The translations under genes and the position numbers were made by a program. DNA of 64,000 nucleotides from Antedon mediterranea. Taxonomy: Eukaryota; Echinodermata; Crinoidea; Comatulida; Antedonidae. Under the pieces are notes generated by a model. The model did not search any database. It was not told the origin of the DNA and saw nothing but the letters and a program-made list of their open reading frames with translations. The stretch's first letter is position 1, and the number at the start of each line of letters is the position of its first letter. Shown here one piece after another: positions 52,001-57,589 of this stretch. The stretch lies in the NCBI RefSeq assembly GCF_964355755.1, contig NC_092677.1:6949001-7013000 (forward strand), written 5' to 3'.

Positions 52001-55000
52001 ATGCAGTTTCCGAACTTTATCTTATATTTCTTGTTGAATTGGTTGACTATTTCTTATGCATCTCAACAACCAAATATTATCGTCATGTTAATGGACGATG
52101 TAAGTTGCCTATTTAGTTGTGGGCATAGGCCTAGATGCTAAAGTTAAAATAGCTAGCTATGCCTAGCCTACTGTACTGTACTACCTAGCTAGAGGCCTTC
52201 TGGATATCCATTATCCGGCCTTCTTTATTTAGAGGCTAAATAAGCCTATAAAACACGTCACACAGGGCCTAGCTAGGCCTCCTCTAGACCGCCGGCGACC
52301 CTGATTACCGGTTTACCTAGGCCTAGATCTATTATTATCAGTTTTATTGCATATTTTACCTAATTATTGGAACCTGTATAATGTAATTGTAATGTTTTTC
52401 GTATTTTTGATGTTTTTATATCATATATGTTGCCTTTATTTAAAATTGTGTATCCTTGTCTGTGTAGTGTAGCCTGTAGGCTAGCCTGGCCCTCTAGTAG
52501 TAGTAGTATTCATATCTGTTTTTAATTGATTGTTTTAAATAATATAAATATTGTATAATAATTTTATTATTATTCAATATACATTTTAAAAATGTACTCA
52601 TACCATACCATATTATTTCCATATTTAAAGTGGCAAAATAAAATTGAATCTGAATTATAGGGAAGAGATTTATTAAATTGAAGTAAAGTAAAGTATTTTT
52701 TCTTCATCATCAAACTTAGATGGGATGGGGAGATTTGGGAGTTTATGGTCAACCGGCGAAGGAAACACCAAATCTGGATAAAATGGCTTCTGATGGGATT
52801 TTACTGCCTGATTTCTACTCTGGAAATCCTCTTTGCTCACCTTGTAAGTCTACTTGCTGTTAGATAAAAAGTTGTGATTGGTCACCGTCATCATACTAAA
52901 CGTAAAAGTCGTTCCTAAATAGCTGACCTATCTACAATCTCTCTAAACTATTAAACAAAGAAAAAAACCGTCAAGCAGAGAATTTGGTCCTACAACCAAA
53001 GGGGCCATAGCCTCATCACTACTCCACTGAGCCATCCAGCTCGTCCATTTACCAGTAACTTAAATCACCTTTTTAACTGAAGATTTACAGACACAAGGAT
53101 TGTACTTGACTAAGATATTAAGATACTACTGTACTATGGTACAGGTGCATATATCTTAACATTTTGTCTATTTTCCAGCCAGAGCATCTTTACTAACAGG
53201 ACGACTTCCAATACGTAATGGATTCTACACGACAAATGCACATGCCAGGAATGGGTATACTCCACAGGTGATAGTGGGAGGAATTCAAGATTCAGAAGTT
53301 CTTTTGCCAAAACTATTACGGACAAAGGGTTACAGAAGCAAAATAATTGGTAAATGGTAAGAATACATTAAAAACAATAATGTATGGTCTTTTTTATTGC
53401 ATTTTGATGCATCCAATTAAAAAACGAAATAATTTTCCATATTTGCCAATCATGGAAATCATCTGGTATATCCAATTTTAACTACAGATAATGATTATTT
53501 GTGTCCTCTATCCTCTGTTGAATCTGTATTCCAATGCTTTTAACTAGAGAGAACATTTTTTTTTTTACTTAAATAGGCATTTAGGTCATCAACCACAGTT
53601 TTTACCGTTAAAGCATGGTTTTGACGAATTTTTTGGATCGACCAATTGTCACTTTGGACCATATGACAATAAGGCTACACCTAATATTCCAGTTTTTCGT
53701 GATGATGCCATGATTGGCCGGTACTATGAAGATTTTCCAGTCAAAAAAGGGGTGTCTAACTTGACTCAAATCTTCATTGAGGTTAGAATTTAATTTGTTA
53801 ATTTATGGACATTGTCAATAACATGGATTAATCAATTTCTCTTAATAAACAATTTTCGCACAATTTGTCTTTTTTTTACAACAAAACATACAATAAATAT
53901 ATTTTATATAACACTCTATTTGTTTAATTAAAGTTTTTATAGTTAAAAAATATACATTTTTAACACAACATCAGATTAAAAAAATAAAAAATTCTGTTCA
54001 AAGGCCCCTGTTTTGCAACTGATGTTGTACTTTTGGGCAACATAACATTAAAAACATTTATTTTGAGGCCCTGTTCAGGAGAGGGTGCGGTAAAATAATT
54101 GTACATGCCACTTCAATACCAAGTTTATTATTTTTTTTTTTTATTCTTGTTATTTAATCTTTAAATTTAAAGGAAGGTTTAAAATTCATTGAAAAAGAGC
54201 AAAGTGCAGATCAGCCATTCTTTTTATACTGGGCGCCTGACGCGACACACACGCCGCTTTACGCTTCCCAGGCATTCCAAGGTACGAGCCAACGTGGACT
54301 ATATGGTGATGTCGTTCGAGAACTTGATTCAGGGGTCGGTAGAATCCTTTCGAAGCTCAAGGAACTGAAAATCGAAAACAACACGTTTGTTTTATTTACA
54401 TCTGATAATGGAGCAGCCCTCGTTTCACGAGTTCAGGGTGAGTAATTCACGCAATATTTAATAATAATTTAATATCTTTACAGGAAGCCCTTGTTTTCAT
54501 TGAGAAACAAGCAAATGAGAAACAACCATTCTTCCTATATTGGGCACCGGATTCCGCTCACCGTCCTCACTACGCTTCTTCCGCTTTCCAGGGACGTAGT
54601 CAGCGCGGCCTGTACGGTGATGTGGTTATGGAACTCGATGATGGAGTTGGTCGTATTCGAAAACGTCTTGAAAACTTACAGATTGCTCAAAATACTTTTG
54701 TGATTTTTTCATCTGATAATGGAGCACCTTTGAATGCTAAATCTGATGGTACACATTTTCTTTCAACAAAATGATTATTTATAGTCGAACCACTGCACTT
54801 CAAATACTAATGATGCATTTTTTGTTGCTTAATTTTATTTTTCTGTTATTGCATGTACGTATATTGATTGTCTAAACAGGACATTCATGTCATTCAGTCA
54901 ACTCTCCCATATCAGACACTATTGGGCTGACCATGGAGACATAATAATAGTAATACTTACTAATAATTTTAAGTCTTGTTTTCCATTTTTAATGTTAAAA

Positions 55001-57589
55001 AAAATCCACGAAAAGGTTTTGAAAGAGTTGCTCTTTTCAGAGACTGCACATGTGTTACTTAATATTTGTGTATATCTTTATATCAGGTGGCAGTAATGGC
55101 CCGTTTCTCTGTGGTAAAGAGACAACATATGAGGGCGGTATGCGTGAACCGACTATTGCTTGGTGGCCAGGAAAGATTTCTGCTGGAAAAGTAAGATAAC
55201 TATAAGCCAGTTGCCATTAACTAGAAAATATTGATAATTCAATGTAGATTTATTATATGTAATTATAATAATTAGGCTATAATCTTAACTAAGCCATCAG
55301 CATATATCTAGTGGTATGTATCTTTTTCATTGATTTTTGCCAAATTTCAGACTAATGACTATTCAATTTATTTTAAAAGGTCAGCCATCAACTTGGTAGT
55401 GTTATGGATATTTTCAGTACAGTTCTGGACATAGTTGGGATTGATGCACCCACTGACCGAATCTATGATGGTCGATCTCTGCTACCAGCTCTACTAGACG
55501 GTCAGATCGACTCTAAAAAGGCAATATTTTATTACCGTGGAAATGAAATGATGGCAGTTAGACAAGGACTATACAAGGCTCATTATTGGACATGGACAAA
55601 TTCTATTAGTGAATTCATTAAGGTATAAATGAAATACCCAAAACATAGAGGTTGCTATGTTTTCTTTTAATACAACCAAACCTAGAGAAAATTATTTAAA
55701 AAAGATATCTGGCATGAGAATATAATATAAATAGGTATTCTGTTGTATCATATTTCCACCTTTATTTAACCAAAAGGATCCAGTTGTAGAGATGGTAAAT
55801 TTAATATTTTGTTTTATATCCAAAACAAATTGGAAGAATTTCACTTTGGGAGGTCTCTTTTTATTATGTATAGAAGCACATGTGGCCAAGGATTACCAAT
55901 AGTAAATTAATCACTATCCTACAATAATACATTGTTATTTCAATTTGATTGCACATAAAGTATCAATTTGTTTTTTTCTTACATCAGGGTATCAACTTTT
56001 GTAGAGGAGAAAATGTCACTGGTGTAATGACACACGAACAAACGAATCACACTGCACAACCACTTCTGTTTCATCTAGGCCGAGATCCCGGTGAAAAATA
56101 TCCTATTAAGTAAGGGTTTGATATATATATAAACTTTATTTATTCACAAGACTGATGTGCAGTACAACTTGTTCAATCAATATTGATTGTTTTTACACAA
56201 GTTTGTGATATTTATCTGCATGTTTTTTAATCATACAGGGTCAGATTTAAAAAATTAGTTACTTAAGTCTGTTTTAAAGATAACTTAAACAAATATATTT
56301 TTACATTTTCTTCAATATTATACATTTTTCACACCTGCAAAAAGTAACAAGTCGCACCAGGTTTGCATAGTGTGAAGACAATTTTGTGGAAAATCTCCAT
56401 CTGTGAAATCTTGGGAGACACACACACCGATGAGAGACCTGGTTTTTAATTCTGAGATTGTGTTACTGTATGCGCATATTGCCCTGATTTTAAACTGACC
56501 AATCATAGAAATCAAATAGCGTGCAACTATGCTTTTTCCTGAGATTTCTCACGGTTCGCGTATGCATGCATGAAAATGTGTAACAAATCGGGAGATCAAA
56601 CCTGGTTACAACTTGTTACAAGTTGTAACAATTTATGCAGGGACATTAGAGGACAAATTCCATCCCATAAGATAAAAAAAATACACTGGTTTGATAAATA
56701 AAGCCTTAGTTTTTCACTTAAGCAATTCTTAATTAACTGGATTGTAATGTGTTCTCTTCTCTGGAAAATAGACTAAAATATCAGTTTTGACTAGCATCCC
56801 AATAATTTGTTTCTTAGAAACAGTAGTAGGGAAACCCCCAATTCCTCAAACATACAGACCTGAATTACAGTATAAATCTCACTTAATAGTACTACAGTAT
56901 ATAATCTGACTTTATTTTAAAGTGAATAATTTTTCTTTAATATGATAATAACATAATCCTTATAAATCAGGTCAACAAGTACAGAATACAAGCAGGCCAT
57001 AGTTGATATTATAAGTGTTGTTGCAGACCACAAGGCCAATCTGAAGCCAGGAACCCCTCAGCTTAATGTGTGCGATAATGCAGTGATGGTAAGTACAATG
57101 ATGCTGCCAAATATTTATAAATAATGTTTTTCCATCATGTGATAGTTAACTCACTACATTAAATCCTACATGATTCACTATTGATATTTCACATTAAAAT
57201 TGAAAAAAAAGAAGAAAATCCAGTGCAGAATTTCTTTCCCTTTTCCAATAAATAAATATTTGTAATTTTATTTTAACATTTATGTTAGCTGATTCTCGCT
57301 GCATATGTATCCGGTAGGCCGGTATCATAGGCCATAAGCCGTAATAATTTAAGTTTGATAGTAAAAATACTTTAATAAATAATGAATAATAATAAGGAAT
57401 GGAAGGACAATACACAATATATTTATTATTATAGTATCGTGATCCTATCTGATTCTTAAAGTGTCATTTCTTAAAATTATTTAATTTTTTTTACTTTTTC
57501 AGAACTGGGCTCCACCGGGTTGTGATAAAATAAATCGTTGTTTAAAGGCACCTGCATCTAACCCAAAAAAATGTACCTGGCCTCATTAA
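52001..57589 (+). CDS. GALNS: N-acetylgalactosamine-6-sulfatase with a duplicated exon
   Basis: Coding exons: 52001-52099, 52720-52843, 53179-53356, 53577-53781, either 54173-54437 (5A) or 54484-54748 (5B), 55087-55190, 55380-55622, 55988-56109, 56971-57088 and 57503-57589. The product is 514 residues (human 522). GALNS is the lysosomal enzyme that removes 6-sulfate from galactose or GalNAc in keratan and chondroitin sulfate. A signal peptide (about 1-20, [15 protein letters not shown]) precedes the metal site Asp32-Asp33. The sulfatase signature [12 protein letters not shown] has Cys72, the formylglycine precursor. Lys133 and His135 lie in GKWHLGH, His228 and Asp280-Asn281 in exon 5, and the [10 protein letters not shown] Lys in exon 6. 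The C-terminus NWAPPGC matches human. All recalled active-site residues are present. Confidence 0.96.
52974..53050 (-). repeat. Possible tRNA-derived SINE fragment
   Basis: On the minus strand GGATGGCTCAGTGGAGTAG resembles a tRNA A-box region, followed by TTGTAGGACCAAATTC as a poor B-box. There is no cloverleaf. It lies in a GALNS intron. Confidence 0.3.
54173..54437 (+). CDS. GALNS: GALNS exon 5A (mutually exclusive)
   Basis: 265 bp, entering at phase 0 and leaving at phase 1 (acceptor TTTAAAG, donor CAGG/GTGAGT). It encodes [19 protein letters not shown], then [14 protein letters not shown] and [14 protein letters not shown]. It supplies the catalytic His (ATH-TP) and the Asp-Asn pair (SDNG). 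It contains a glycosylation sequon (NNT, residues 271-273). It is closer than 5B to the human sequence at the His motif (human ATHAP). Confidence 0.92.
54484..54748 (+). CDS. GALNS: GALNS exon 5B (mutually exclusive)
   Basis: Also exactly 265 bp with identical phases (acceptor CTTTACAG, donor GATG/GTACAC). It encodes [19 protein letters not shown], then [14 protein letters not shown] and [14 protein letters not shown]. By hand count 57 of 88 residues equal 5A. The catalytic His and Asp-Asn are kept, but the residues around His change (ATHTP to SAHRP, adding an Arg) and the NNT sequon becomes QNT. The frame is clean and the splice sites usable, so it does not look like a dead copy. Confidence 0.92.

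Follow-up and report, generated by a model that had tools for sequence, protein, structure and literature searches.

A putative pair of mutually exclusive active-site exons in a GALNS sulfatase gene

The question raised by this locus is whether a single sulfatase gene, GALNS, makes two versions of its enzyme by choosing between two homologous copies of an exon that encodes part of the active site. The gene was assembled within the window, i.e., the entire 64,000-nt stretch of DNA analysed here, and its features are listed in Table 1. Judged by its predicted protein, the gene is GALNS (sulfatase S1_5): human GALNS (4fdi) aligns end to end with scores of 793 bits for the isoform carrying exon 5A (isoform A) and 780 bits for the isoform carrying exon 5B (isoform B), compared to ~260 bits against arylsulfatase A (ARSA) and STS, and the formylglycine signature C-x-P-S-R is present as CSPSRA in exons 2-3. 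All of the GALNS introns are of the GT-AG form, with the U12 type not indicated, and a search of the genome (354 Mb, 18 contigs) found this to be the only GALNS locus. The exon lengths of 124, 178, 104, 122 and 118 nt are presumably identical to those of human GALNS, and we take the 265-nt exon 5 to be equivalent to human exons 6+7 (c.634-898), which presumably also total 265 nt.

Table 1. Coordinates of the GALNS gene and of its two exon 5 versions, numbered from the first position of the window.
Feature	Position	Strand	Remarks
GALNS coding region	52001-57589	+	10 exons in each transcript; 514 aa whichever exon 5 version is used
Exon 1	52001-52099	+	assembled exon by exon
Exon 2	52720-52843	+	assembled exon by exon
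Exon 3	53179-53356	+	assembled exon by exon
Exon 4	53577-53781	+	common upstream partner of 5A/5B; ends at phase 0; donor GAG/GTTAGA
Exon 5A	54173-54437	+	265 nt; near-ancestral; catalytic His in ATHTP, Asp-Asn in TSDNGAAL
Spacer intron	54438-54483	+	46 nt; GTGAGT...TTTACAG; candidate branch points 12-35 nt from donor
Exon 5B	54484-54748	+	265 nt; derived; catalytic His in SAHRP, Asp-Asn in SSDNGAPL; weak donor ATG/GTACAC
Exon 6	55087-55190	+	common downstream partner of 5A/5B; entered at phase 1
Exon 7	55380-55622	+	assembled exon by exon
Exon 8	55988-56109	+	assembled exon by exon
Exon 9	56971-57088	+	assembled exon by exon
Exon 10	57503-57589	+	assembled exon by exon

The first-pass annotation had described exons 5A and 5B as equal in length, entered at phase 0 and left at phase 1, identical at 57 of 88 residues and separated by a 46-nt spacer of the form GT...AG; these values and the coordinates of both exons were reproduced exactly. 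Isoforms A and B each possess an open frame of 514 codons. Translation of the spliced assembly containing both exons encounters a stop at codon 297, skipping of both leads to a stop at codon 255, and retention of the 46-nt intron leads to a stop at codon 293. Chance similarity is ruled out, since the translations of 5A and 5B match human GALNS with E values of 1.6e-32 and 4e-26, respectively, and the next best match in the genome reaches only 39% identity. Homology, equal length, and the shared frame and phases of the neighbouring exons are all found here, as in mutually exclusive tandem exons generally; the splice donors of both exons lie at the low end of the scores, in what is a small sample. 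The exon pair, its frames, its splice sites and the selection acting on 5B can be demonstrated from the DNA itself. The forced choice between the exons that had been proposed is well supported by the frame logic, the splice sites, the 46-nt spacer set against a sampled minimum of 84-88 nt, and purifying selection, and one GALNS gene probably makes two enzyme variants, with one exon version per mRNA. The reading favoured here, to which a probability of about 0.82 is given, is that 5A and 5B represent an old tandem duplicate kept as a functional, mutually exclusive pair, with exclusivity presumably imposed by steric block and NMD, and that 5B would be active with an altered pocket rim.

The best match of 5B in the genome outside of itself is 5A (68%), with other sulfatases at 39% or below; with only one GALNS locus present, this indicates that 5B is a tandem duplicate of the gene's own exon, and its derivation from another sulfatase gene was rejected. 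Only 160 of 264 nt are identical between the copies and their flanks are unrelated, so the duplication is neither recent nor an artefact of assembly. Compared to human GALNS, 5A is identical at 52 and 5B at 49 of 87 residues, with derived states confined to 5B at 8 sites and to 5A at 5 sites. In a tree with bacterial sulfatases as outgroups, the GALNS rows formed one clade (100/99) within which the branching order was left unsettled, and the branches measured 0.063 for 5A, 0.44 for 5B and 0.54 for human GALNS, lengths that are rough because the alignment is short (84 columns). As 5A has the shortest branch and that of 5B is near the human one, 5A is near-ancestral, and 5B, the derived version, has diverged about as far as human GALNS while remaining constrained. 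The extent of this divergence suggests that the duplication is old. When the exon pair was sought outside its own genome, none was found in viral contigs, and prokaryote genomes yielded only bacterial sulfatases, 80 of which served as the outgroup and conservation set.

Differences between 5A and 5B are distributed over the three codon positions as 30/18/57. A dN/dS near 1 for 5B had been named in the first-pass annotation as a result that would speak against its proposal; in a codon model fitted to the pair by maximum likelihood, omega = 1 is rejected (2dlnL 86), and omega = 0.5, which corresponds to roughly one neutral branch, is rejected by ~53. Silent sites are saturated, amino-acid divergence is about 0.25-0.3, and omega is near 0-0.1. 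In neutral simulations of a single branch with 0.5-1 changes per site, only 0.7-2.4% of runs were free of stops, and on average 16-33 of the 88 residues survived. Both exons keep all 16 of the positions in the interval from residue 20 to residue 80 at which the 80 bacterial sulfatases are conserved to 85% or more, even though 5A and 5B differ at 18 of the 61 positions of that interval (P 0.0013). By these measures both exons are under purifying selection, and 5B is not a decaying copy.

Equivalents of the catalytic His (human 236) and of the Asp-Asn pair (288-289) are kept in both exons, as had been claimed, and the reported change from ATHTP to SAHRP beside the His was also confirmed, the surrounding residues reading ATHTPL in 5A and SAHRPH in 5B. 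Block 14-32 is otherwise invariant, with 5A and 5B differing only at positions 24, 25, 27 and 29, around the His. Few of the 80 bacterial relatives share the states found in 5B: none has Arg at 27, and His at 29 and Ala at 25 are found in one each. The residue preceding the catalytic His varies (T, A, P, M, V) among the other sulfatases of this genome, so an Ala at this position is compatible with activity. Of the human GALNS variants, T235K has been classed as likely pathogenic (PMC9456254), and R259Q figures in a list of surface mutations associated with an attenuated phenotype (PMC7073202); the R259 position is occupied by Met in 5B, as it is in human ARSA and in one in four of the bacterial relatives. 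One earlier claim did not hold in its original form: 5B was said to have dropped an N-glycosylation sequon, present in 5A as NNT, and the polarity of this change is doubtful, as human GALNS also lacks the sequon (it has D at that position) and a loss in 5B is thus not demonstrable. Exon 5A would keep the ancestral GALNS activity on the 6-sulfate of GalNAc/galactose, and 5B would encode an active sulfatase with a different pocket rim around the catalytic His, in which (human numbering) Thr 235 is replaced by Ala, Ala or Thr 237 by Arg, and Val or Leu 239 by His. A changed rim in 5B can reasonably be inferred from these substitutions and altered substrate handling is plausible; the rim would probably tune the substrate, the pH optimum or the kinetics in a particular tissue or stage. 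The different substrate preference proposed in the first-pass annotation is compatible with these observations. The further suggestion of two sulfatases with different substrate ranges, in which the Arg after the His in 5B would read a differently sulfated or charged glycan, is tentative and on balance doubtful.

The 46-nt spacer, which the first-pass annotation considered probably too short for splicing, is shorter than any other intron sampled in this genome: 22 dynein introns that could be delimited exactly have a minimum of 88 nt and cluster at 88-113 nt, the other introns of the GALNS gene are at least 189 nt long, and the shortest other intron in the genome sample, the spacer of a myosin exon pair, is 84 nt. 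It also falls below the mammalian limit, as human reporters with a donor-to-branch-point distance of less than 47 nt show profound-to-complete splicing failure (PMC11291888), and both the human exon-pair atlas (PMC5740500) and the work on OGDH (PMC7969005) set the threshold for steric interference at less than 50 nt; the branch-like sites found here fall well inside that distance. On the other hand, human cells splice introns of 43, 49 and 56 nt (PMC4463651), and the block posed by a 46-nt spacer is therefore not absolute. The 43- and 49-nt human introns are G-rich, a feature not seen in this spacer, which contains 5 G and no GGG. A steric block combined with frame and NMD is the likely mechanism of exclusivity. 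Each mRNA would join exon 4 to one of the two versions, 5A or 5B, followed by exon 6; joining of 5A to 5B would be blocked by a donor and branch point too close to accommodate U1 and U2 together. The occasional transcript with both exons or with neither would contain a premature stop and be removed by NMD, a second safeguard. Intronic docking/selector pairing was sought in the surroundings of the exons, and the inverted repeats seen there were all AT-rich and of low complexity. A single TGCATG (Rbfox-type) is located at 54850-54855, ~100 nt downstream of 5B, and could be due to chance; a single such motif is too weak a sign of Rbfox control.

One alternative is that 5A alone is in use and that 5B is a pseudo-exon, a tandem copy that is silent or decaying and normally skipped. 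The weak 5B donor (GTACAC) and a 5B branch ~7x longer than that of 5A are in keeping with this, but an open frame despite saturated silent divergence, the low omega, the retention of every family-conserved position and a divergence comparable with that of human GALNS, a functional orthologue, make it improbable; a very recent loss of 5B use is possible. Even less probable, and rejected, is an assembly or haplotype artefact in which two alleles were placed in tandem: nothing was found in its favour, and copies of such low nucleotide identity, 46 nt apart with unrelated flanks at the genome's one GALNS locus, speak against it.

Two further alternatives accept both exons as functional and differ from the favoured reading in what the choice does or how it is enforced. 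The isoforms may be biochemically interchangeable, with the swap serving regulation (e.g., with double inclusion acting as an NMD-coupled off switch) or reflecting a neutral old duplication held by dosage. The identical catalytic residues, the early stops after double inclusion or skipping, which are suited to NMD, and the mostly conservative residue changes of human tandem exon swaps (PMC9741552) are consistent with this, but the unusual residues of 5B are concentrated beside the catalytic His, some in states absent from the 80 relatives, and the 46-nt spacer makes efficient double inclusion unlikely, so that interchangeability, although the strongest of the competing explanations, is itself unlikely. 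It is rather less likely still that the 46-nt intron is spliced efficiently and that no steric block is involved, the choice being left to a trans-acting regulator or to frame and NMD only; the canonical donor and acceptor of the spacer and the short human introns noted above would permit this, but no other intron below 84 nt occurs in the genome sample and the spacer is without the G-rich feature of its human counterparts.

Tandem-duplicated mutually exclusive exons are a well-known gene switch, described in a human atlas (PMC5740500, PMC9741552) and exemplified by exons 4a/4b of OGDH (PMC7969005), and GALNS would be a new case. As in OGDH and other known pairs, the homologous exons lie side by side, match in length and phase and break the frame unless exactly one of them is used, and the spacer between them is short, with a donor-to-branch-point distance of less than 50 nt. 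Unlike OGDH, GALNS is a lysosomal sulfatase, its spacer measures 46 nt versus 118-131 nt in birds and mammals, and the pair is predicted from sequence. The protein resembles human GALNS (SulfAtlas S1_5, PDB 4fdi) over its whole length and in its catalytic residues, but the human structure contains a single version of this segment, from which 5B differs at 38 of 87 aligned residues, the flanks of the His included. Searches of the open-access literature returned no report of such an exon pair in a sulfatase, in agreement with the first-pass annotation, which knew of no such switch in GALNS. To our knowledge, no second copy of the segment exists in human GALNS. Among the open-access papers searched, GALNS and mutually exclusive exons are mentioned together in only one, which reviews splicing-based treatment of the mucopolysaccharidoses. 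If confirmed, the pair would provide two active-site variants from one lysosomal sulfatase gene without gene duplication, and with them a natural comparison for how residues around the catalytic His set GALNS specificity, which has a bearing on T235K and other Morquio A variants. It would also show very cleanly how a sub-minimal intron enforces exclusivity.

Alternative exons adjoining an enzyme active site are also known from cluster-3 of muscle myosin heavy chain (loop-1 to switch-1; PMC3912159). A muscle-type myosin gene of this genome (G000:C1:19159546-19159821) contains tandem homologous exons of 102 and 90 nt with an 84-nt spacer, spanning the end of loop-1 to switch-1 and thus corresponding to cluster-3 (PMC3912159). 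Unlike in the GALNS pair, the frame does not force a choice between these exons, because both lengths are multiples of three. Only cluster-8 has been reported in sea urchins and the acorn worm (PMC3912159), so the myosin pair may inform the affinity of the organism, possibly an echinoderm or crinoid; no match to mitochondrial COX1 was found in the assembly. Elsewhere (G000:C3:19.6-25.1 Mb), the same exons of the myosin head (profile positions 342-408 and 564-640) recur ~20 times over 5.5 Mb on both strands, which suggests either a large array of myosin heavy chain genes or copies carried by repeats. Compared to the single GALNS, 105 sulfatase-domain exon matches were found genome-wide, and many-gene sulfatase clusters are located on contigs C5, C9 and C11 (e.g., C5:9599883-9682895 and C11:7802570-7861051).
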